Of a DNA stretch of 34,641 bases, positions 1 to 13,795 are shown piece after piece (the stretch's first letter is position 1; every line of letters begins with the position of its first letter). Both the position numbers and the translations under genes were made by a program. The stretch lies in NCBI GenBank assembly GCA_030647435.1, contig JAUSJX010000175.1:1-34641 (forward strand), in the 5' to 3' direction. Under the pieces are notes generated by a model that did no database searches, was not told the DNA's origin, and saw only the letters and a list, made by a program, of their open reading frames with translations. This DNA comes from Candidatus Rokuibacteriota bacterium (GTDB taxonomy: Bacteria > Methylomirabilota > Methylomirabilia > Rokubacteriales > CSP1-6).

Positions 1-264
1 GAGGAAGAGGAAGACTGGACCGTCGTCATCCGTTCGCCATACGATCGCCTGGGCGTCGACGGGGCACCCCTGGGGCGGGTTGAGATGCAGCGTCACAAGC
101 GAAGCGTCTTCCAGCCGCTCCCCGAGGCGCAGCTTGACGCCGAATTGACTCACGTCAATCGTCCTGCCGTGAAGCACCCGATCGTCCAGCTCCACGACCA
201 CCGGCCAGTTGACCTTGGCCCGTGGTCGTCGACGCGACTCCGACCGCCGCAATTTGCCGCGCAT
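1..264 (-). CDS. PilZ-domain protein (3' end beyond the window)
   Basis: This gene is read leftward off the window edge; 88 codons are visible from an ATG at 264-262. The N-terminal half shows the two PilZ signatures for cyclic-di-GMP binding: an RxxxR arm (R11 to R15) and a DxSxxG motif (D37, S39, G42, in DVSQFGVKL), followed by PilZ-like beta strands. The family acts as a cytoplasmic c-di-GMP receptor, often controlling polysaccharide synthesis or motility. A purine-rich Shine-Dalgarno sequence (GGGGGA) lies about 7 nt before the ATG. A candidate sigma-54 promoter sits 27-40 bases upstream. Whether other domains follow PilZ cannot be seen. The EPS locus nearby makes a polysaccharide-related role plausible, but that is inference. 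Confidence 0.85.
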
Positions 265-288
265 GAGAGTTCCCCCGCTGTGAATCTG

Positions 289-305
289 TAGCAAGCGACG
301 TACCG
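289..305 (-). promoter_or_regulatory. Candidate sigma-54 (-24/-12) promoter for the PilZ gene
   Basis: On the minus strand the sequence CGGTACGTCGCTTGCTA has GG (304-303) and GC (292-291) separated by exactly 10 bases. The -12 half TTGCT matches consensus; the -24 half CGGTAC differs from TGGCAC at two positions. The predicted transcription start is near 280, about 15 bases before the ATG at 264, leaving room for the Shine-Dalgarno. Only the match and its spacing are seen; use is inferred. Confidence 0.45.
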
Positions 306-312
306 TCGTCGC
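295..312. repeat. Inverted repeat overlapping the candidate PilZ promoter
   Basis: GCGACG (295-300) and CGTCGC (307-312) form perfect 6-bp arms around a 6-base spacer. It overlaps the candidate -24 region, so it could be an operator. A small terminator for leftward transcription is also possible, but there is no T-tract. Low certainty. Confidence 0.3.
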
Positions 313-400
313 CGGCTGATGGACATGCTACAAAATCCGCTACTTGTGGAGCACTCAAGGATGCCGCCACGCTTCTGTATGGCGCTTGTCGTCGCATCAC

Positions 401-440
401 CGACGAATCTTGGAGGGTCAGGACGAATTTTGGAGGATCA
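401..440. repeat. Two tandem 20-bp repeats with GACGAAT core
   Basis: Bases 401-420 and 421-440 are two adjacent 20-bp units agreeing at 17 of 20 positions; each contains GACGAAT followed by a TTGGAGG-type stretch. They lie in non-coding DNA just downstream of the acs remnant. Arrays of ~20-bp repeats occur at the ends of IS21-type and related transposons, so this could be a transposon-end scar. It could also be a regulator binding site. No transposase is visible nearby. Confidence 0.5.
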
Positions 441-498
441 GAAGGATGGATGGTCACGCTTGCCATCGCCCGGCGGTGCTGCTCCCGGAACGGATTCC

Positions 499-832
499 TC
501 AGCGCGCCTCGGGGATGGCCCTGACGCCGCCCGGATTGTCGAGGGAGGAGAGATTGCCCGGATCCTTGCCGAGGTGGCTCGCGCGGATCACCCAGCCGCA
601 GCACGGCGAAGCAGACCACGGCCTCGCCCTTGATCTCGTGGGGCACGCCGACCGCCGCAGCCTCGGCCACCGCCGGATGGCTCACCAGCACCGACTCGAC
701 CTCCGCCGGCCCCACGCGCTTGCCCGCGATCTTCAGCGTCTCGTCCGAGCGCCCGGTAACGAACCAGAAGCCGTCCGCATCTATACCGGGATTTCCGATA
801 TGGACCGATTCGGCCTCCGTGGCGGCATCCAC
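499..832 (-). pseudogene. acs: Remnant of acetyl-CoA synthetase (C-terminal part, internally deleted and frameshifted)
   Basis: Read leftward from about 832, the translation is a clear AMP-forming acetyl-CoA synthetase C-terminal region: [20 protein letters not shown], then [23 protein letters not shown] and [11 protein letters not shown]. At about 590-600 the reading shifts frame and resumes as the enzyme's extreme C-terminus ([20 protein letters not shown]), ending at TGA 501-499. About 45 residues normally between these blocks are missing, including the segment that carries the conserved catalytic, acetylatable lysine. The N-terminal ~500 residues are absent too, and the residues just before the conserved block are decayed. 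This cannot encode a working enzyme. Compositionally different DNA starts right after it (response regulator at 887). Confidence 0.85.
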
Positions 833-1580: not shown

Positions 1581-4500
1581 CTAGACGCCCTTCTTGAGTT
1601 CGAGCGAGCCTTGAGCCGGTCCCTGCAGGTTGTCAGCCAGCTTCGCCGCGTGGGTAGCATAGAAGGGGACCTTCAGATCGCTGAACGCCCTCTGCGCGGC
1701 AGCCAGATGGGTCGCCGCCGCATCCGGTCGGCCCGATGCGTCGGCAATCACGGCCAGGTCGAGCAGGGTGCGGGCGCCCTCGTAGGCCGCGCCGATGGAT
1801 TGAAAAGCCTGACGGGCCCCCTCCAAATGGCCCTCTGCCTCAGCGAGGACGCCCCTGGCCCGGGCGATGCGGCCGAGGGCGCGCCGGGCCAGCGCCCCAG
1901 CGAACGGGAAGCCAAGCTCATCACTCAGGGCCAGTCCCTCCTCGGCCAGTTCCAGTGCCCGCTCCTCGTGCCCTCGCCCCAGGAGGGCCTCGCTCAGCCA
2001 GGCGCAGACTAATGCGTGCAGTGGTCGGCACTTCCACCCGAGGAATTTGTCATAGGCCTGTACCAAGACGTCGGCCGCTTGCTCCGGATCTTCCATCTCG
2101 AGGCAGGCGGCCCCCAGCCAGGCCCGAGCGACTGCTGTGGCCAGGGGGTCGGGCGCCAGTTCGACAGCGCGCCGGCAGGCCGCGACGCCTGCCTCCCAGT
2201 CTCCGCGGAGCGCGTGGGCCCACCCCTTCGCGAACCCGGTGAAGCACTCGAGCCGAGGATCGCCCGTCTCTCGCGCGACCTCCCACGCCGCCTCCTCCAC
2301 CTCGATGGCGCCCTCGAGATTTCCGGCGGCGATGCAGTTCATGCCTATGCCCCACATCGCTTGGCCTGTCCACCACCGCTCGCGCGGCTTGCGGAGCCGG
2401 GCGACCGCCGCCCGGCCGTCCTCGGTCCCCTCGCCGAAGCGTCCTGCCCAGAAACAGTCCAGCGCGAGCCCATGGCTCGCCATTGCCAGCGTGGTCGCGT
2501 CCCCGGAGCGGCCGGCCTCCGCCGCCGCCCGCCGGAGCCAGACCGCAGCCGGGGCCGCCTCTCCCAACAGGCCGTACGCTCCGGCAAGCGCCAGGAAGAA
2601 GGGTCCGGCAAGCCGCGGGTCCGTGAGGGCCTCAACGCAGTGCAGGTGGCGAAGCAGCAGGTCGCGGGCTCCCTCGAGCCGGCCAAGCTTCAAGAGGGGA
2701 TGGGCCTGGTGGGTCACCAGACCCACCATGAGCCGGTCGCGCTGAGCGCCGGCTGGCAGACGCGCCGCGTCCTCCAGTGCATGATCCAATACCGCCGCGG
2801 TGTCTCCGAGGGTGCAGTTCCGACCCGCCGTCTGGAGCACGTGCGGCAGGTAGGCGATCGCCTTCGCTGAATCGGCGCTCCTGCCGTAGTGGTAGGCGAG
2901 GAGCTCGTACACCTCCTGGAGCCTGCCGGCATGCAGCTCCTCGAGGGCCGCACCCACGGCCGCGTGCAGCGTCCGCCGCTCCTCGACAGGGAGGGATTCG
3001 TAGACGGCACGGCGCATGAGTGGGTGATTGCACTGCAGCACGGTCTCTCCGCGCCGGCTCTCCTCGTGGAGGAGCTCGTGCTTCCGAACCTCGGCCAGGA
3101 GGGGAGCGAGGCCTCGTGGCCTGCCCAGCACGTGTTCGACCAGACGCACCGGAGCCCAGTCGCCGATGACCGAGACGATCAGCAGCAGCCGACGGGCTCC
3201 GGCGCTCAGGCGGCTCATCCGCGGCAGCAGAGCCCCTTGGATGGCATCCGTCATTCTGAGCTCGTCGCCCTCACCCTGCTTCTCGACAGCGCCCCGAGCG
3301 AGCTCTTCAAGGAAGAACGGGTTCCCGTTCGCGGTGTCCAGGATCCGGTGGATCAGGCCCTTCGGCTGCAGCGAAGCCGGCAGAAGGGAGCGCAGGAGCC
3401 CGAAGCTCCTCCCGCGCGACAGCGGCTGCAAGCCGAACTGGGTTACGTACGGCCTGTCGCCCCACGGGAGCCGGTACCCGGGCCGATATGTTGTCAGCAG
3501 GAGAATTCGGGAGCTGGGCAGCTCCTGGCTGACAGAGAGCAGGAACTCCTCGGCGGTTCTCCCGGCCAGGTGCAGGTCATCGATGGCAATGACCAGCGGT
3601 GCACACCGGCTGCGTTCGACCGCAAACCGGCGCAGCATTTCGATGGTCCGGGCCCTGATCGCTTCGCGGCTGACCCCGGCCAGCCGTTCCGTGCCGGCCG
3701 AGACACCTGCGGCAGACAAGAGGTACGGGGCCCACTCGTCTGGATCGAGGCCCGCGTCCTCCAACCCATGGCGGACCTTCTCGCAGATGGTGCCGCCGCT
3801 GTCGCTCTCTGTGATCCCGTAGGCCTGCTGCAGGATCTGGATCACGGCATCGTTGACCATGGCGCCGTTGGAGGGGACGCATTCCGCGTCGCGATAGACG
3901 AAGCCCCTCTGGACCGCCCGCTGCCGGAACTCGCGCAGCAGTCGGGACTTGCCAATCCCAGCCTCGCCCACGATCCCGACCGCCCGCCCTTGGCCCTGCT
4001 CGACCTGATCGAGCAGGGCGTCCAGCATCGAGAGCTCGTGCTCCCGGCCCATAAAGGGCGCGAGCGGCTGGCCCGGCGCATGGCATCCCGCTCGCCGACG
4101 GCTGACGAGTCGGTACAGCGGATCCCGACCATCTCCCGGAGCCGCGACGGGCTCGAGCTCGAACTGTGCGTGGAGCAAACGCGCCGCGTCGGCAGCGACG
4201 AGGATGGACTGGGGCTCCGAATGCTCGAGCACAATCCCGAGCGCCACCGCTCCCGGCCGTTGTCGCCCCCCGGTCGTCTCCGGCGTATCGTCCCCGTCCC
4301 GGACCCGCGCCGTCGACACGTGCAGGGCGAGCTGCACGGTGAACGGGCTAGAGCCGTCCGGGTACCCGTCCGCGCCGGCCTTCTGCACGGCAAGGGCTGC
4401 GTTGGCTGCGCATGAGGGCCCGTCCTCCATATGGAGTCCATCAAAGCCGAAGCGGGCAAGCAGCTCGGCGCCGGTCATCCCCTCGACCCGCCCGCCGAAG

Positions 4501-5720
4501 CGCCGCACCTTGTCGGCGATGCTCTCCAGGACGCGGCTGACCTGGCCGGGATCAGTGCCCGCCTGCGATACCGAAGCAGCCAGGTAGACCCCCTGACGGG
4601 GCTGCCAGGTGTCCTCTGTCCATGCAGGCGCGCCGGGCCCGACCTTCCCCGACCTCTCACCAATCTTGCCGGGAGGCTTCCTTCCCGGTGCGAGGACCGT
4701 CCCGGCTTTCCCCGGGTAAAGCTCGAGCTTGGCGATCCGGTAGCGGAGGGTGTTGCGGGGCAGTCCCAGGTGAACAGCCGCGAGGGAGACGTTCCAGCCC
4801 GTCTCCCGGAGAGCCCCACGCAGCTTCTCCCGCTCGAAGCCCTCGACCGAGACCTTCAGTTGCGACCGTTCGGGCTCGCGAACGCCCTTCGCGGGCCCGG
4901 CAGGCGGGCGCAGACCAAGGAGGTCCGGTGTGATGATGGACACGTCTCCCGAAAGCAGGGCGACGCGTTCGAGCATGTTCGCCAGCTCCCGGACATTGCC
5001 CGGCCACGGATAGGCCAGGAGGGCCGCCTGTGCTTCTGCGGTCAGCACTTTCAGGGGCAGGTGGTATTCGGCGCACGCTCGTCCGAGGTAGTGCGCTGCC
5101 AGCAGCAGGATATCGCCGCCGCGCTCCCGCAGCGGTGGCATGAAAAGCGTCATGGCCGCCAGCCGGTGGTAGAGGTCCTCGCGAAAGGCGCCCTCGCGCG
5201 TGGCCGTGGCCAGGTCGATGTTGGTGGCGGCGATGACCCAGAGATCCACTACCTCGACGCGCGTACTCCCGAGCCGCCGGACCCCCCGCTCCTCCACCAC
5301 CTTGAGGAGCTTCGCCTGAAAGGTCCTGGGCAGCAGCCCCACCTCGTCCAGGAAGATCGAGCCGCCGCTGGCAGCATGGAAGAGGCCGAGCTTGGGTTGC
5401 TTTGCGTCGGTGAAGGCGCCACGCTCGAATCCGAAGAGCTCAGCTTCCAGCAGGGTCTCCGGGATGGCCAGGCAATCTGCGTCGATGAACGGCTGGCTCG
5501 ACCGCGCGCTCGCATTGTGGACAGCCCGTGCGAGGAGGCCCTTGCCTGTCCCCGTCTCACCCTGGATGAGCAGCGTCGGCAATCGCCGTGACGGCGACTG
5601 CCGACGCAGGAGGTGGGTAATCTGCTCGCGCAGCAGGATCATCCCCGGGCTTTCTCCGATCAAATCCTGTATGCCAACACCACGGGGATCCAGGAACCGC
5701 CCATGCTCGATCGCAGCCAT
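1581..5720 (-). CDS. Giant sigma-54 activator fused to degenerate cyclase-like, STAND-type ATPase and TPR-like regions
   Basis: This 1379-residue protein has an unusual domain order. Residues ~20-255 are a sigma-54 AAA+ activator: Walker A GETGTGKG (54-61), sigma-54 contact loop GAFTDA (101-106, usual form GAFTGA), Walker B SIFLDE (121-126). A Fis-type helix-turn-helix follows at ~303-330 (GWNVSLAAVHLGLPRNTLRY). Residues ~370-530 resemble a class III cyclase domain but read MTGAELLARFG where active enzymes have GD, so catalysis is unlikely. A second ATPase starts near 554 (PFMGREHEL) with Walker A GEAGIGKS (~583-590) and Walker B LVIAIDDLH (~707). Residues ~900-1379 are helical TPR-like repeats. 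No receiver or PAS domain precedes the AAA+ module, so sensing is probably C-terminal. It is divergent from the EPS operon and is a likely regulator of it (inference). The start at 5720 is chosen for its strong ribosome-binding site. Confidence 0.9.
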   Translation of the reverse strand: MAAIEHGRFLDPRGVGIQDLIGESPGMILLREQITHLLRRQSPSRRLPTLLIQGETGTGKGLLARAVHNASARSSQPFIDADCLAIPETLLEAELFGFERGAFTDAKQPKLGLFHAASGGSIFLDEVGLLPRTFQAKLLKVVEERGVRRLGSTRVEVVDLWVIAATNIDLATATREGAFREDLYHRLAAMTLFMPPLRERGGDILLLAAHYLGRACAEYHLPLKVLTAEAQAALLAYPWPGNVRELANMLERVALLSGDVSIITPDLLGLRPPAGPAKGVREPERSQLKVSVEGFEREKLRGALRETGWNVSLAAVHLGLPRNTLRYRIAKLELYPGKAGTVLAPGRKPPGKIGERSGKVGPGAPAWTEDTWQPRQGVYLAASVSQAGTDPGQVSRVLESIADKVRRFGGRVEGMTGAELLARFGFDGLHMEDGPSCAANAALAVQKAGADGYPDGSSPFTVQLALHVSTARVRDGDDTPETTGGRQRPGAVALGIVLEHSEPQSILVAADAARLLHAQFELEPVAAPGDGRDPLYRLVSRRRAGCHAPGQPLAPFMGREHELSMLDALLDQVEQGQGRAVGIVGEAGIGKSRLLREFRQRAVQRGFVYRDAECVPSNGAMVNDAVIQILQQAYGITESDSGGTICEKVRHGLEDAGLDPDEWAPYLLSAAGVSAGTERLAGVSREAIRARTIEMLRRFAVERSRCAPLVIAIDDLHLAGRTAEEFLLSVSQELPSSRILLLTTYRPGYRLPWGDRPYVTQFGLQPLSRGRSFGLLRSLLPASLQPKGLIHRILDTANGNPFFLEELARGAVEKQGEGDELRMTDAIQGALLPRMSRLSAGARRLLLIVSVIGDWAPVRLVEHVLGRPRGLAPLLAEVRKHELLHEESRRGETVLQCNHPLMRRAVYESLPVEERRTLHAAVGAALEELHAGRLQEVYELLAYHYGRSADSAKAIAYLPHVLQTAGRNCTLGDTAAVLDHALEDAARLPAGAQRDRLMVGLVTHQAHPLLKLGRLEGARDLLLRHLHCVEALTDPRLAGPFFLALAGAYGLLGEAAPAAVWLRRAAAEAGRSGDATTLAMASHGLALDCFWAGRFGEGTEDGRAAVARLRKPRERWWTGQAMWGIGMNCIAAGNLEGAIEVEEAAWEVARETGDPRLECFTGFAKGWAHALRGDWEAGVAACRRAVELAPDPLATAVARAWLGAACLEMEDPEQAADVLVQAYDKFLGWKCRPLHALVCAWLSEALLGRGHEERALELAEEGLALSDELGFPFAGALARRALGRIARARGVLAEAEGHLEGARQAFQSIGAAYEGARTLLDLAVIADASGRPDAAATHLAAAQRAFSDLKVPFYATHAAKLADNLQGPAQGSLELKKGV

Positions 5721-5732: not shown

Positions 5733-5822
5733 GGCTTGTCCGCACTTAGGCCACACGGGAGCACGCCCGTCCAAGGCGGGGGCCGAGTCTATTCGATAGT
5801 TCGCCAGTCTTCAATGGCCACC

Positions 5823-5869
5823 GACGAATCCCGGGCGATTCAGACGAATTGCTGGCGTTTGTGACGAAA
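5823..5869. repeat. Three GACGAAT/A motifs phased at exactly 20 bp
   Basis: GACGAAT begins at 5823 and 5843, and GACGAAA at 5863. The 20-base step is about two helical turns, so a protein could bind all three on one DNA face. They lie about 100-150 bp upstream of the giant regulator's start and 240-290 bp upstream of the EPS sigma-54 promoter, a normal distance for an enhancer-binding protein. The same heptamer and period occur at 402 and 422. An alternative is a transposon-end remnant. Confidence 0.5.
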
Positions 5870-6111
5870 ATCCAGCGACCGCTTCGGGATTCAATTCTTG
5901 TCGTGGCAGGCTGCGGCACCAAAAGCGGAGCCCAGTGGCCCGAGCCGCATACTCGTCCGCAAATGTTTGCACTGTGAATGTCGCTTCAGTTTACAAAACA
6001 CCATGATCGTCGAGTGAGGACCGTGCTCAAGGCAGTCGGAAAGTCTTACGTTCTCGGAAGATCTCTCTATTCACGAAGCTGAACTAATGAATTCAAATAA
6101 GGTCTTCGACA

Positions 6112-6128
6112 TGGCGCGTTGTTTGCTT
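6112..6128 (+). promoter_or_regulatory. Sigma-54 promoter of the EPS operon
   Basis: TGGCGCGTTGTTTGCTT has GG (6113-6114) and GC (6125-6126) exactly 10 bases apart. It matches the consensus TGGCAC-N5-TTGCW at all but one position (TGGCGC for TGGCAC; TTGCT exact). Transcription would start near 6137-6138, about 40 bases before the ATG at 6177. It agrees with two sigma-54 activators encoded on either side. EPS loci controlled by PrsR-type regulators are known to use sigma-54 promoters. Confidence 0.75.
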
Positions 6129-6176: not shown

Positions 6177-7595
6177 ATGCACCGCGAGCCGATGAAGAAG
6201 CGGTTCGTGCTGGTGGTGGAGACCGACCCGATCGCCCGACGACATCTGACCAGCCTCCTGGAGACCTGGGGATACGAGCCGGTCGTGACAGGCTCGGTGG
6301 ACGAATCGCTTGCCGTCCTTGCCCACAGCCACTTCCTCTTCAGCCTGCTCGACCTGGACCTCGACGGCGCCGACGGGAACGAGCTCCTCAAGCGGCTCCG
6401 GGTCCAGGGGGGCGACCCCGGCGCGATCATCGTTATCACCAACGGAACCGGGCTCCACGGCGCCGCCGAAGCGGCGGCCCTGGGCGCCGACGACTTCGTC
6501 CAGAAGCCGTTCACCCCGGAGGAGCTCGACAACGCCATCAAGAACGGGCTGGCCCGGCCGCGCCGGGGCTGGGGGCGCGCGGTCGAGGACGACCCGCACC
6601 GCAGGCTCCAGGAGGAGATCTCCCTCTGGAGCAGTGCCGGGATGCAGGAGGTCCGGCACATCATCGGCCAGGCGGCGCGCGCGGACGTCACGGTCCTCAT
6701 CTGCGGTGAGACGGGCACCGGCAAGGACCTGGTGGCTCGGAGCATTCACCAGGTGGGGGTCCGGCAGGACGGCCCCTTCGTCAAGGTCAACTGCGCGGCG
6801 GTGCCCCGGGAACTGCTCGAGAGCGAGCTGTTCGGCCACGAACGCGGGGCCTTCACCGGGGCCCACCAGCTCAAGATCGGCAAGTTCGAGTCGGCCGACC
6901 GCGGCACCATCTTCCTCGACGAGATCAGCGATCTCCACCCGGCCCTGCAGGGCAAGCTGCTCCACGTGCTGCAGGATGGGCAGTTCTCTCGGGTCGGGGG
7001 CCGCTCGATCATCAAGGTGGACGTGCGCGTGCTCGCCGCAACCAACCAGAACCTGGAGCAGGCCGTCGCCGCGGGGCAGTTCCGGGAGGATCTCTACTAC
7101 CGCCTGAATGTCATCCAGATCGTCGTCCCCCCGCTGAGGGACCGTCTGGAGGAGATTCCGGCCCTGGTCCAGTACTTCGTGCGGCGCTACGCCCGGCTCT
7201 TCCAGCAGGAGGGGTTCACGCTGCCGCCCGAGACCATGGAGCGGCTAATGCGGCACCGGTACCCGGGCAATATCCGGGAGCTGGAGAACTCGGTGAAGCG
7301 AATGATCGTCCTCGGTGACTCGCTGCTGACCAAGAGCCCGATGTTTAGCGGCCTGGGGAGCGACGAAGCCGACAGACCCATCCCCGCGGCCAAGCCCGGT
7401 ACCGTCTCGCTCAAGGCCGTTTCCAAAAGGGCGGCGATGGCGGCCGAGCGGGAGGCCATCCTCCGCGCTCTCGAGCAGACCCGGTGGAACCGTCTGCAGG
7501 CGGCCAAGCTCCTCAACATCAGCTACCGGGCCCTGCTCTACAAGATCAAGGACGCCGCGCTCGACCGCGAGCGCCTACCCTCGAGCGGGCCATGA
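6177..7595 (+). CDS. NtrC-type sigma-54 response regulator (PrsR-like)
   Basis: The 472-residue protein has the classic three-part layout. The receiver (residues ~8-125) has E15/D17, phospho-acceptor D59, T88 and K110. The AAA+ domain (~150-385) has Walker A GETGTGKD, an intact GAFTGA sigma-54 loop and Walker B TIFLDE. A C-terminal Fis-type HTH ends the protein (TRWNRLQAAKLLNISYRALL). Phosphorylation should trigger hexamer formation and open sigma-54 promoters, probably including its own at 6112. An in-frame ATG at 6087 lies upstream of that promoter's start site, so 6177 is preferred; 6192 is possible. It resembles regulators of EPS/PEP-CTERM loci, but no exosortase or cognate kinase is here. 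Its stop overlaps the next gene's start (ATGA). Confidence 0.93.
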   Translation: MHREPMKKRFVLVVETDPIARRHLTSLLETWGYEPVVTGSVDESLAVLAHSHFLFSLLDLDLDGADGNELLKRLRVQGGDPGAIIVITNGTGLHGAAEAAALGADDFVQKPFTPEELDNAIKNGLARPRRGWGRAVEDDPHRRLQEEISLWSSAGMQEVRHIIGQAARADVTVLICGETGTGKDLVARSIHQVGVRQDGPFVKVNCAAVPRELLESELFGHERGAFTGAHQLKIGKFESADRGTIFLDEISDLHPALQGKLLHVLQDGQFSRVGGRSIIKVDVRVLAATNQNLEQAVAAGQFREDLYYRLNVIQIVVPPLRDRLEEIPALVQYFVRRYARLFQQEGFTLPPETMERLMRHRYPGNIRELENSVKRMIVLGDSLLTKSPMFSGLGSDEADRPIPAAKPGTVSLKAVSKRAAMAAEREAILRALEQTRWNRLQAAKLLNISYRALLYKIKDAALDRERLPSSGP

Positions 7596-12643: not shown

Positions 12644-13795
12644 ATGAGCCTTCCAGCACCGTCCACCTCCACGATGCGCCTCCCGGTCACACCGGTGTCC
12701 CGGTTGCGCGCTATGGCCATCCGCGGTCTGGCACGAATGTACCGGCCGGAGAACGGGCTCTTCGCGTTCCGGGTCCGGCGGCGGGGCGAGGAGCTCCTCT
12801 TGGAGGGCTCGAGTCATCGCTACACCGCGATCGCCCTTATCGGGCTTGCCGGCGAGGACGAGGCGGTGCAGGCCTCGGTCCTGGCTGGCATTAGGGTGCG
12901 CGAGGCGTGTGCACGTCTCGTCAGCGAAGTGGCCGCACTCGAGAGCCTCGGCGACGTGGCCCTCGTCCTCTGGGCCGCCTGCGCGGTCGGCTACCCCGAC
13001 CGCCGGTCAGTGGTCGAGCGCCTGCTCGCTCTCCAGCCGGACGAGGCCGCTCATCCGACGGTCGAAGTCGCGTGGACGCTGGCGGCACTCTGCGCCGACC
13101 TTGACGCCCCGGTCGGGCCCCTTCGCAACCGGCTGGCCCGCCGCCTGATCGCCGCGTTCGAACCCCGCTCCGGGATGTTCCCTCACGGCATGGGTGGACG
13201 GCCCGGCGGCTTCCGCGGGCACGTCTGCTGCTTTGCTGATCTCGTGTACCCGGTCCACGCCCTTGCGCGGTACGCGGAGCTCTTCGGCGACGCGGAGGCG
13301 CGCGACGTTGCCCTGCACTGCGCCCGGGAATTCTGCGCCCGTCAGGGTCCCGACGGGCAGTGGTGGTGGCACTACGACCGCCGGACCGGCGATGTCGTCG
13401 AACGATACCCCGTCTACGCCGTCCATCAGGACGCGATGGCTCCGATGGCGCTCTTCGCCCTCGAGCGCGCGGCCGCTATCGACCTACGCTCGCCGATCGC
13501 ACGGGGGCTCGGCTGGCTTGCGCACGCGCCGGAGCTCGGCGGCGGCTCGCTGATCGATGAGGGCGCGGACCTGATCTGGCGAAAGGTGGCCCGTCGCGAG
13601 CCTCGGAAGCTTTCGCGCTACGCTCAGGCGGCCGCAAGCCGCCTTCACCCCAGCTTGAGGACACCCGGCCTGGACATCCTCTTCCCGCCGTGCGTCGTCG
13701 ACTACGAGGACCGTCCGTACCACCTGGGCTGGCTTCTCCACGCGTGGCCGGCCGGGCGCGCGGCTCGATGGGACGAGCGAGCGATCCCGCAATGA
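12644..13795 (+). CDS. Unrecognised EPS-locus protein, probably helical (alpha/alpha-toroid-like)
   Basis: I do not recognise this 383-residue protein. It has no signal peptide or transmembrane helix and is rich in Ala/Arg/Leu. Repeated Trp/Tyr/His/Gly motifs sit between predicted helices (GMFPHGMGG, GFRGHVCCFADLVYP, DGQWWWHYDRRTG, YPVYAVHQDAMAPMAL, RPYHLGWLLHAWP). This pattern recalls (alpha/alpha) barrel proteins such as glycan lyases, epimerases or cyclase-like toroids, and the clustered aromatics and acidic residues could line a sugar-binding groove. That is fold-level inference only. It lies between the initiating transferase and the WecG-type enzyme and overlaps the latter by ATGA, so it is probably a dedicated part of the pathway. 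The start may be 12644 or the in-frame ATG at 12674. Confidence 0.8.
   Translation: MSLPAPSTSTMRLPVTPVSRLRAMAIRGLARMYRPENGLFAFRVRRRGEELLLEGSSHRYTAIALIGLAGEDEAVQASVLAGIRVREACARLVSEVAALESLGDVALVLWAACAVGYPDRRSVVERLLALQPDEAAHPTVEVAWTLAALCADLDAPVGPLRNRLARRLIAAFEPRSGMFPHGMGGRPGGFRGHVCCFADLVYPVHALARYAELFGDAEARDVALHCAREFCARQGPDGQWWWHYDRRTGDVVERYPVYAVHQDAMAPMALFALERAAAIDLRSPIARGLGWLAHAPELGGGSLIDEGADLIWRKVARREPRKLSRYAQAAASRLHPSLRTPGLDILFPPCVVDYEDRPYHLGWLLHAWPAGRAARWDERAIPQ

Follow-up and report, generated by a model that had tools for sequence, protein, structure and literature searches.

A probable one-component sigma54 activator with a C-terminal pseudo-cyclase/STAND/TPR sensor beside an exopolysaccharide cluster in Rokubacteria

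Introduction

Rokubacteria are uncultured bacteria of soil and groundwater. A contig of a Candidatus Rokuibacteriota genome (JAUSJX010000175.1; the whole stretch of 34 641 nucleotides was analysed and is called the window) carries a gene in which the AAA+ and Fis-type HTH domains of a sigma54 activator are followed by a cyclase-like domain, a second ATPase and helical repeats. This raises the questions whether such a chain is a genuine regulator, which genes it would control and how it could be switched. Judged from sequence and predicted structure, the fused protein is probably a one-component bacterial enhancer-binding protein (bEBP) with a C-terminal pseudo-cyclase/STAND/TPR sensor, activating a divergent exopolysaccharide (EPS) regulon.

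Results and Discussion

The fused gene is a single unbroken reading frame (Table 1). Its domains are arranged, from N to C terminus, as sigma54 AAA+, lid, Fis HTH, cyclase fold, STAND (AAA_16) ATPase and TPR. The AAA+ domain starts about 20 residues from the N terminus, and Pfam detects neither a receiver nor a PAS or GAF domain in the protein; having no receiver ahead of the AAA+ domain, it is not a response regulator of the NtrC/PrsR type. A receiver is present in its neighbour at 6192–7595. The original prediction had read this domain order and the lack of an N-terminal sensor from the letters of the sequence, together with a pseudo-cyclase with GD changed to GA and a second, STAND-like ATPase followed by about 450 residues of helical repeats. 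All were borne out by Pfam (AAA_16, TPR_12), PDB profile and fold matches and structure prediction, and 68 fusions in all were collected across Methylomirabilota genomes.

Table 1. Features of the window (positions in the 34 641-nucleotide stretch; residues of the fused protein).
Feature	Position	Strand	Basis or remark
PilZ-domain gene, runs off contig; candidate second target	1–264	−	Pfam PF07238, E=1.9e-10
Sigma54-like site CGGTACGTCGCTTGCT facing PilZ gene	290–305	−	2 mismatches; score 11.5, next best 6.5
Further 20-bp tandem repeat with GACGAAT; possible second enhancer	402–441	+	Repeat and dyad searches
Fused gene (1379 aa), starting with the ATG at 5720	1581–5720	−	88%-identical ortholog in G003, family alignment
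TPR sensor region, residues ~912–1366 (~455 residues)	1623–2987	−	Modelled helical pairs, Pfam TPR_12, Foldseek
Winged-helix/arm region of STAND module, residues ~742–911 (limits approximate)	2988–3497	−	AlphaFold, 6mfv match; by analogy
STAND ATPase AAA_16, residues 555–741	3498–4058	−	Pfam 3.5e-23, fold match to 6mfv
STAND Walker A (GEAGIGKS); Walker B (IAIDD)	3945–3968; 3570–3596	−	Sequence motifs
Domain with class III cyclase fold, metal-binding motifs absent; residues ~370–541	4098–4613	−	PDB profile matches, AlphaFold and Foldseek, residue comparison
Fis-type HTH, residues 292–332, recognition helix PRNTLRYR	4725–4847	−	Pfam HTH_8 2.6e-11
AAA+ lid, residues 198–268	4917–5129	−	Pfam AAA_lid_14
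Sigma54 AAA+ core, residues 21–192	5145–5660	−	Pfam Sigma54_activat 1.7e-55, motif conservation
AAA+ Walker A; GAFTDA loop; Walker B	5538–5561; 5403–5420; 5343–5360	−	Read from coordinates, alignment
Candidate sigma70 promoter of fused gene, TTGAAG-N17-TAGACT	5786–5814	−	By eye; blocks conserved in G003
Three GACGAA repeats, exact 20-bp spacing, candidate enhancer sites	5823–5868	+	Phase kept in G003
Sigma54 −24/−12 promoter-like site TGGCGCGTTGTTTGCT	6112–6127	+	1 mismatch; 0.01 expected in intergenic stretch
Receiver-sigma54-HTH regulator, predicted direct target	6192–7595	+	Pfam; start conserved in G003; 71% identical in L193
XrtA/PEP-CTERM-type exopolysaccharide cluster, predicted behind regulator	7484–34470	+	NCBIfam; candidate operon extent

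The N-terminal half has the make-up of a sigma54 bEBP of the NtrC family. Walker A and B, the arginine finger and the sigma54-contact loop are present in the AAA+ core (Pfam, alignment), and a Fis-type HTH follows. The AAA+ motifs are intact family-wide in the alignment, the contact loop reading GAFTDA in 67 of 68 fusions. The genome also has a gene for sigma54, and a −24/−12 promoter with upstream sites is found nearby.

This promoter-like site is conserved in the genome G003, with a similar site at the ortholog in another genus (L193); it lies 407 bp from the start of the fusion, farther than in most family members. The exact dyad GACGAA-N14-GACGAA has three occurrences in the genome (5.8 Mb), all of them inside the window, with the third before the PilZ gene. 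This gene is likely to be a second target of the fused protein, as far as the sequence indicates; the PilZ link was not seen in G003, whose contig carries other DNA there. A sigma70 consensus scan of the intergenic region found no promoter. The divergent regulator probably starts at the ATG at 6192 and not at 6087, and the cluster behind it encodes Wzz, an ATPase, a tyrosine kinase, sugar transferases and glycosyltransferases (NCBIfam). Fusion, receiver regulator, Wzz and ATPase are linked in the second genus as well. Control of the adjacent EPS operon through sigma54-dependent transcription, as first proposed, is thus supported by the conserved −24/−12 site, the phased repeats and the synteny, with one refinement: the direct divergent target would be the receiver-sigma54 regulator that heads the operon.

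The arrangement recurs across the family. A divergent −24/−12 promoter was found upstream of 43 of 66 fusions (same orientation, 5/66; 4.1 expected) and of 1/20 non-fused controls; about a third of the fusions have no divergent site, and a few have one in the same orientation. An IHF-like element stands at a near-constant distance in 13 of the 43 with a divergent site. The HTH recognition helix and the operator repeats between gene and promoter vary together across fusions, a covariation that was defined on the same data with 3–5 independent contrasts only and is not significant by independent pairs. Divergent target genes were picked by codon-position GC and ribosome sites, the choice of the longest frame being unreliable in GC-rich DNA, and some may be miscalled. 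Most fusions sit back to back with a sigma54 promoter that is probably under their own control.

The promoter at 6112 and the GACGAA repeats could also serve the receiver-sigma54 regulator, which would activate its own operon while the fused protein acts on distant targets. This regulator is itself a bEBP by Pfam, and autoactivation of bEBP genes is common. In most family members, however, promoter and repeats are present although the divergent gene does not encode an EBP; moreover, the repeats change with the recognition helix of the fusion and, in the window, adjoin the fusion's own candidate promoter. Self-activation of this kind is regarded as unlikely, and control of the divergent operon by the fused protein is preferred.

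The best PDB fold match of the C-terminal half is 6mfv, the STAND-TPR protein PH0952 (Foldseek, E=5.7e-15), with a TPR superhelix behind the STAND core as in the fusion; MalT (8bob) is also among the matches. Global TM-scores for 6mfv are low (0.23/0.31), and the domain arrangement is thus not fixed by the match. STAND-TPR proteins switch by oligomerising, and an ADP/ATP switch with ligand-driven oligomerisation is known for MalT (PMC6468293); by analogy, we infer that the fused protein may behave likewise. Alternatively, the fused protein might activate sigma54 while its C-terminal half, instead of being a STAND on/off switch, acts as a scaffold or is a constitutive component, control being exerted through expression or partner proteins. 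The GAFTDA loop carries the same change as NorR G266D, which is active and rendered NorR constitutive, and the STAND Walker B is followed by LHLAG in the window protein versus LHWID in most members. Against this, all 29 aligned members retain the STAND Walker A and most have the module at full length; a role without switching is considered very unlikely, and a STAND module that could switch is the preferred reading.

In the domain between HTH and STAND module, GA replaces GD in MTGAELLARFG (residues 415–425; 4446–4478, minus strand), and the first metal-Asp motif is likewise lost. Pfam gave no cyclase match in the fused protein. A family profile of residues 366–552 matches PDB structures of class III cyclases (2w01, E=1.2e-5), and the AlphaFold model (pLDDT 85) resembles Rv1625c and RhoGC (Foldseek, E about 4e-11). 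The protein has the cyclase-homology fold of class III nucleotide cyclases, and the two metal-binding Asp motifs are present in 0/68 fusions; an active cyclase was rejected on this evidence. Among the non-fused cyclase-STAND-TPR relatives, the first metal-Asp motif is present in 17/20 and the catalytic GD in 20/20, versus 0/68 fusions, so upon fusion cyclase output was apparently exchanged for sigma54 activation.

The 68 fusions were gathered from Methylomirabilota genomes, with up to five per genome; a full-length paralog (41% identical) is encoded elsewhere in the genome of the window. No fusion turned up in genomes sampled from other phyla, those to which Anaeromyxobacter (146 genomes), Bryobacter (199) and AH_259_B03_O07 (58) belong, with 3–10 candidates scored per genome. 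A search of contigs with the family profile returned ordinary EBPs, because its seed words came from the AAA+ and STAND motifs, and no report of a sigma54-STAND fusion was found in the open-licence literature. Separate halves in all close relatives had been named beforehand as the sign of an assembly artefact; the fusion is unsplit in these relatives, exceptions being few (the copy in L060, a small genome, 86% complete, where two overlapping frames encode the halves, and some contig-end truncations). Although that copy, and the fact that each half is also common in the genome as a gene of its own, might suggest an assembly artefact or a functionless one-off fusion, this can be dismissed with near certainty, since the fusions, which come from many assemblies, can be aligned over their full length and share family-specific residues on both sides of the join, and ortholog and paralog exist.

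Probably, the family arose from a cyclase-STAND-TPR signalling chain that gained a new output, a sigma54 activator placed in front, the cyclase then turning into a non-catalytic domain; this direction is the one that we infer. At rest, the STAND part would be closed (ADP) and the protein unassembled. Binding of a ligand or of a partner protein to the TPR domain would open it to the ATP form, and the opened protein would oligomerise, so that an AAA+ ring could assemble on the phased GACGAA sites and contact sigma54-RNA polymerase at 6112–6127 through DNA looping. Expression of the receiver-sigma54 regulator would thereby be turned on, together with that of the EPS genes that follow it and probably of the PilZ gene.

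Divergently placed bEBPs (NorR-norVW; the Desulfovibrio vulgaris one-component EBPs, PMC4641369) share with the fused protein the sigma54 AAA+ and Fis HTH domains and a gene divergent to a sigma54 promoter with repeated operator sites between. Known bEBPs have their sensor (receiver, GAF, PAS, V4R) ahead of the AAA+ domain, or none, whereas the fusion carries about 1000 residues of sensor behind the HTH. MalT and PH0952 (6mfv) likewise have a STAND ATPase followed by a winged helix and TPR superhelix (C-terminal fold match), but their effector is a LuxR-type or ArsR-like HTH in place of a sigma54 AAA+ machine, and they have no cyclase-fold domain. The mycobacterial cyclase/AAA/LuxR (Mclx) proteins Rv0386, Rv1358 and Rv2488c also combine a cyclase-homology domain, an NB-ARC/AAA ATPase and a DNA-binding output in a single chain, and two of the three have lost some of their cyclase residues (PMC4452763); their output is a C-terminal LuxR HTH, that of the fusion an N-terminal sigma54 activator, and metal motifs are kept in no fusion. 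Zinc-ribbon/cyclase/AAA_16/TPR proteins of the same genomes are homologous to the fusion from residue ~395 over ~970 residues (L058, L059: 35–37% identity) but lack an EBP, keep the GD (20/20) and have a divergent sigma54 promoter in one of 20.

Conclusions

It is possible, though at present a tentative view, that the family represents a new class of bEBP control, in which assembly of the AAA+ ring is driven by a STAND oligomerisation switch on the C-terminal side of the HTH and the pseudo-cyclase is kept as a nucleotide-sensing regulatory domain; it would have spread by duplication within Methylomirabilota, each copy having a divergent sigma54 promoter of its own and an operator that varies with its HTH. 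The chain combines the STAND/MalT switch with the AAA+ ring of bEBPs, both of them thoroughly studied, with the output first and the sensor last, an order for which no report was found in the open-licence literature. The family offers a natural example of how an enzyme domain turned into a pseudoenzyme when a signalling chain changed its output, and its dozens of paralogs with their own predicted promoter and operator are ready regulator/promoter pairs for HTH specificity and one-component sigma54 control. For Rokubacteria, in a phylum, Methylomirabilota, with few cultured members, the window supplies a concrete candidate regulator of exopolysaccharide.

Domain architecture and catalytic motifs

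The uninterrupted minus-strand frame 1581-5720 encodes 1379 residues. A cyclase domain was not found by the Pfam search of residues 366-552; a profile of this region built from 29 family members matched PDB class III cyclases (2w01, E=1.2e-5). The AlphaFold model of the cyclase-like domain (pLDDT 85) gave Rv1625c, RhoGC and CyaC as structural matches (E about 1e-11 to 1e-10), and the top PDB match of the model of residues 366-1379 was the STAND-TPR protein PH0952 (6mfv, E=5.7e-15), with MalT (8bob) ranked lower. The original prediction had listed a sigma54 activator, a pseudo-cyclase, a second ATPase and TPR-like repeats in one chain; this list was borne out, since Pfam, profile and structure matches agreed with each domain.

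Positions of protein domains (residues of the fused protein) and of features ahead of the PilZ gene (nucleotides of the window)
Feature	Position	Strand	Evidence
Sigma54 AAA+ core	residues 21-192		Pfam
AAA+ lid	residues 198-268		Pfam
Fis HTH	residues 292-332		Pfam
AAA_16	residues 555-741		Pfam
TPRs	C-terminal end		Pfam
PilZ gene	1-264	-	E=1.9e-10
Sigma54-like site CGGTACGTCGCTTGCT	290-305	-	score 11.5
GACGAA 20-bp dyad	402-441	+	only exact dyad in the genome besides those at 5823/5843

The Walker A, Walker B, arginine finger and sensor II motifs of the sigma54 ATPase were all retained in the window protein and in nearly all of 29 aligned fusion members. The sigma54-contact loop was GAFTDA in 67/68 fusions, compared with 9/74 enhancer-binding proteins (EBPs) from a broad sample. 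The NorR variant G266D, which has the equivalent change in its loop, remains able to form open complexes and is no longer repressed by the GAF domain (PMC2941729); by analogy, this loop would suit a family without an N-terminal repressor domain. Both metal-binding motifs were gone from the cyclase-like domain in all 68 fusions; non-fused cyclase-STAND-TPR proteins from the same and related genomes kept the GD motif in 20/20 and the first motif in 17/20 cases, and two of them that were read at full length (L058 and L059) had a zinc-ribbon-like N terminus. The Walker motifs of the second ATPase were retained. The pseudo-cyclase could have a sensing role or be no more than a structural remnant. 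At three outgroup loci of the L087 type (L144, L157 and L158), in Desulfobacterota AH_259_B03_O07 and one relative, non-fused cyclase-STAND-TPR genes stand in tandem and their cyclase motifs are intact; the products share ~25% identity with the window protein's C-terminal half.

Window locus

Three GACGAA repeats, spaced by exactly 20 bp, are located at 5823-5868; their phase was kept in the ortholog from the same-genus genome G003, in which the middle copy is changed. In the 5.79-Mb genome there are three exact GACGAA-N14-GACGAA dyads, every one of them within the window (5823, 5843 and 402). A sigma54 promoter-like site, TGGCGCGTTGTTTGCT, was identified at 6112-6127 (0.01 expected in that stretch) and is kept as TGGCCTGTTCCTTGCT in G003, though much of the surrounding intergenic DNA has diverged. 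The next gene encodes a receiver-sigma54 regulator and is followed by XrtA/PEP-CTERM-type EPS genes. Translation of this regulator probably starts at 6192, not at 6087, because the promoter falls within the longer frame and ATGAAGAA(G/A)CGG is conserved in G003. The arrangement recurs in genome G072, from another genus, where the counterparts of the regulator (71%), Wzz (64%) and ATPase (68%) lie opposite a related fusion and a sigma54-like site precedes the regulator start by about 120 bp; the fusions of the window, G003 and G072 form one clade in the tree. The fused gene is directly followed, in the same orientation, by a gene for a stand-alone receiver-domain protein (887-1510), which may be co-transcribed with the fused gene or belong to the same EPS signalling.

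On the minus strand, CGGTACGTCGCTTGCT lies about 97 bp beyond the dyad at 402, and the PilZ gene comes next; this gene is probably another target of the fused regulator. PilZ proteins are typically c-di-GMP binders that in many cases affect exopolysaccharide, which makes a common regulon of the EPS and PilZ genes plausible. The link was not seen in G003, on a contig that is short. An ORF at 155-832 (-) overlaps operator and promoter ahead of PilZ; the N-terminal part aligns to PF13193 (AMP-binding enzyme C-terminal domain) over only about half of the profile, and the ORF looks like a gene remnant.

Predicted divergent promoters and operator repeats

The 600 bp 5′ of each fusion were scanned for TGGCAC-N5-TTGCW (≤1 mismatch, GG and GC invariant). 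This gave 15 sites, all divergent (0.37 expected in that orientation), and none in the same orientation. By using a weight matrix set by hand (cut-off ≥10 bits), a divergent site was found in 43/66 fusions and a same-orientation site in 5/66, with 4.1 predicted from Markov controls. Most divergent sites are separated from the start codon by 120-160 bp. Only 1/20 non-fused cyclase-STAND-TPR genes had one (Fisher p=1e-6 against the fusions, relatedness ignored). An IHF-like element, with the consensus YAA-N4-YTGATW, was present in 13/43 cases (0.8 expected), in a single orientation only and mostly 29-31 bp 5′ of the -24 box. Such an arrangement is classic for a bacterial EBP (bEBP) gene beside its target. 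At three fusion loci (L029, L171 and L168, the last with its fusion at 12715) a sigma54-like site is aimed at the fusion's own gene, possibly for autoactivation.

Repeats between fusion and divergent promoter were identified by k-mer enrichment upstream of the fusions. The recognition helix RNTLRAR was accompanied by TTGACC/TTGAAC repeats in 15/19 cases (1/20 otherwise), and PRNTLRYR by NCGAA repeats in 6/8 (0/31 otherwise); S/T-RNTLRYR usually occurred with ACCACC arrays, which are not specific to that class. In a tree built without the HTH, the P-type helix arose on several branches. The covariation comprises 3-5 independent contrasts only, which puts significance out of reach of a sign test, and motif classes were defined and counted on the same data; binding of the repeats by the fused protein itself is therefore a strong lead, not proof. 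Fourteen loci (L041, L044, L172-L179, L181, L182, L184 and L186) have in common an operator of the form GGTCAA..GTTCAA..TTGACC adjoining the fusion start, together with an IHF-like element at a fixed position; opposite many of these fusions lies a gene for a membrane or exported protein of ~190 aa without family assignment.

Distribution of the fusion

The genome of the window also encodes a full-length paralog (41% identity; frame open at L029), and the same-genus genome an ortholog (88% identity). By our own tally from the match table, about 34/57 genomes of the window's taxonomic family encode one or more fusions that are full-length or nearly so, the maximum being five in a single genome. 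The match coordinates of one member of this family, G013, are identical to those of Candidatus Rokubacteria bacterium GWA2_70_23, which places the window in Rokubacteria/Methylomirabilota. It was also found in two other families of the order and in two genomes of one further family of the class. Few candidates were scored per genome in the limited samples of 48 other named genomes and of the phyla of Anaeromyxobacter (146 genomes), Bryobacter (199) and AH_259_B03_O07 (58), in which the fusion was not found, so wider occurrence is possible. At L060 (G023:C215) the EBP half and the C-terminal half lie in two overlapping frames, probably through a frameshift or misassembly in this small genome.

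Known systems and proposed role

Each half and each layout is already known: the bEBP gene beside its target from NorR and the D. vulgaris divergons (PMC4641369), the STAND-TPR module from other STAND-TPR regulators, and the cyclase-ATPase-HTH chain from mycobacterial cyclase-AAA-LuxR proteins with partly degenerate cyclases (PMC4452763). The open-licence literature yielded no protein that combines an N-terminal output with a sensor of ~1000 residues C-terminal to the HTH.

STAND proteins with a TPR sensor exist as closed monomers with ADP bound until an inducer binds, whereupon they open and assemble (PMC6468293), and bEBPs are hexameric rings that remodel sigma54-RNAP (PMC2941729). In the simplest joint model, STAND opening would make the AAA+ ring assemble at the phased operator. 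We consider it fairly likely that the fused protein, controlled by its STAND-containing module, is a sigma54 activator of the divergent genes; STAND gating is the least certain step. Predicted targets of other members include MlaC, SBP56, DctP/TRAP, cupin, AurF-like, aminotransferase and response regulator proteins as well as many small proteins, exported by appearance. Since these targets vary among members, the sensors of different fusions probably read different signals.
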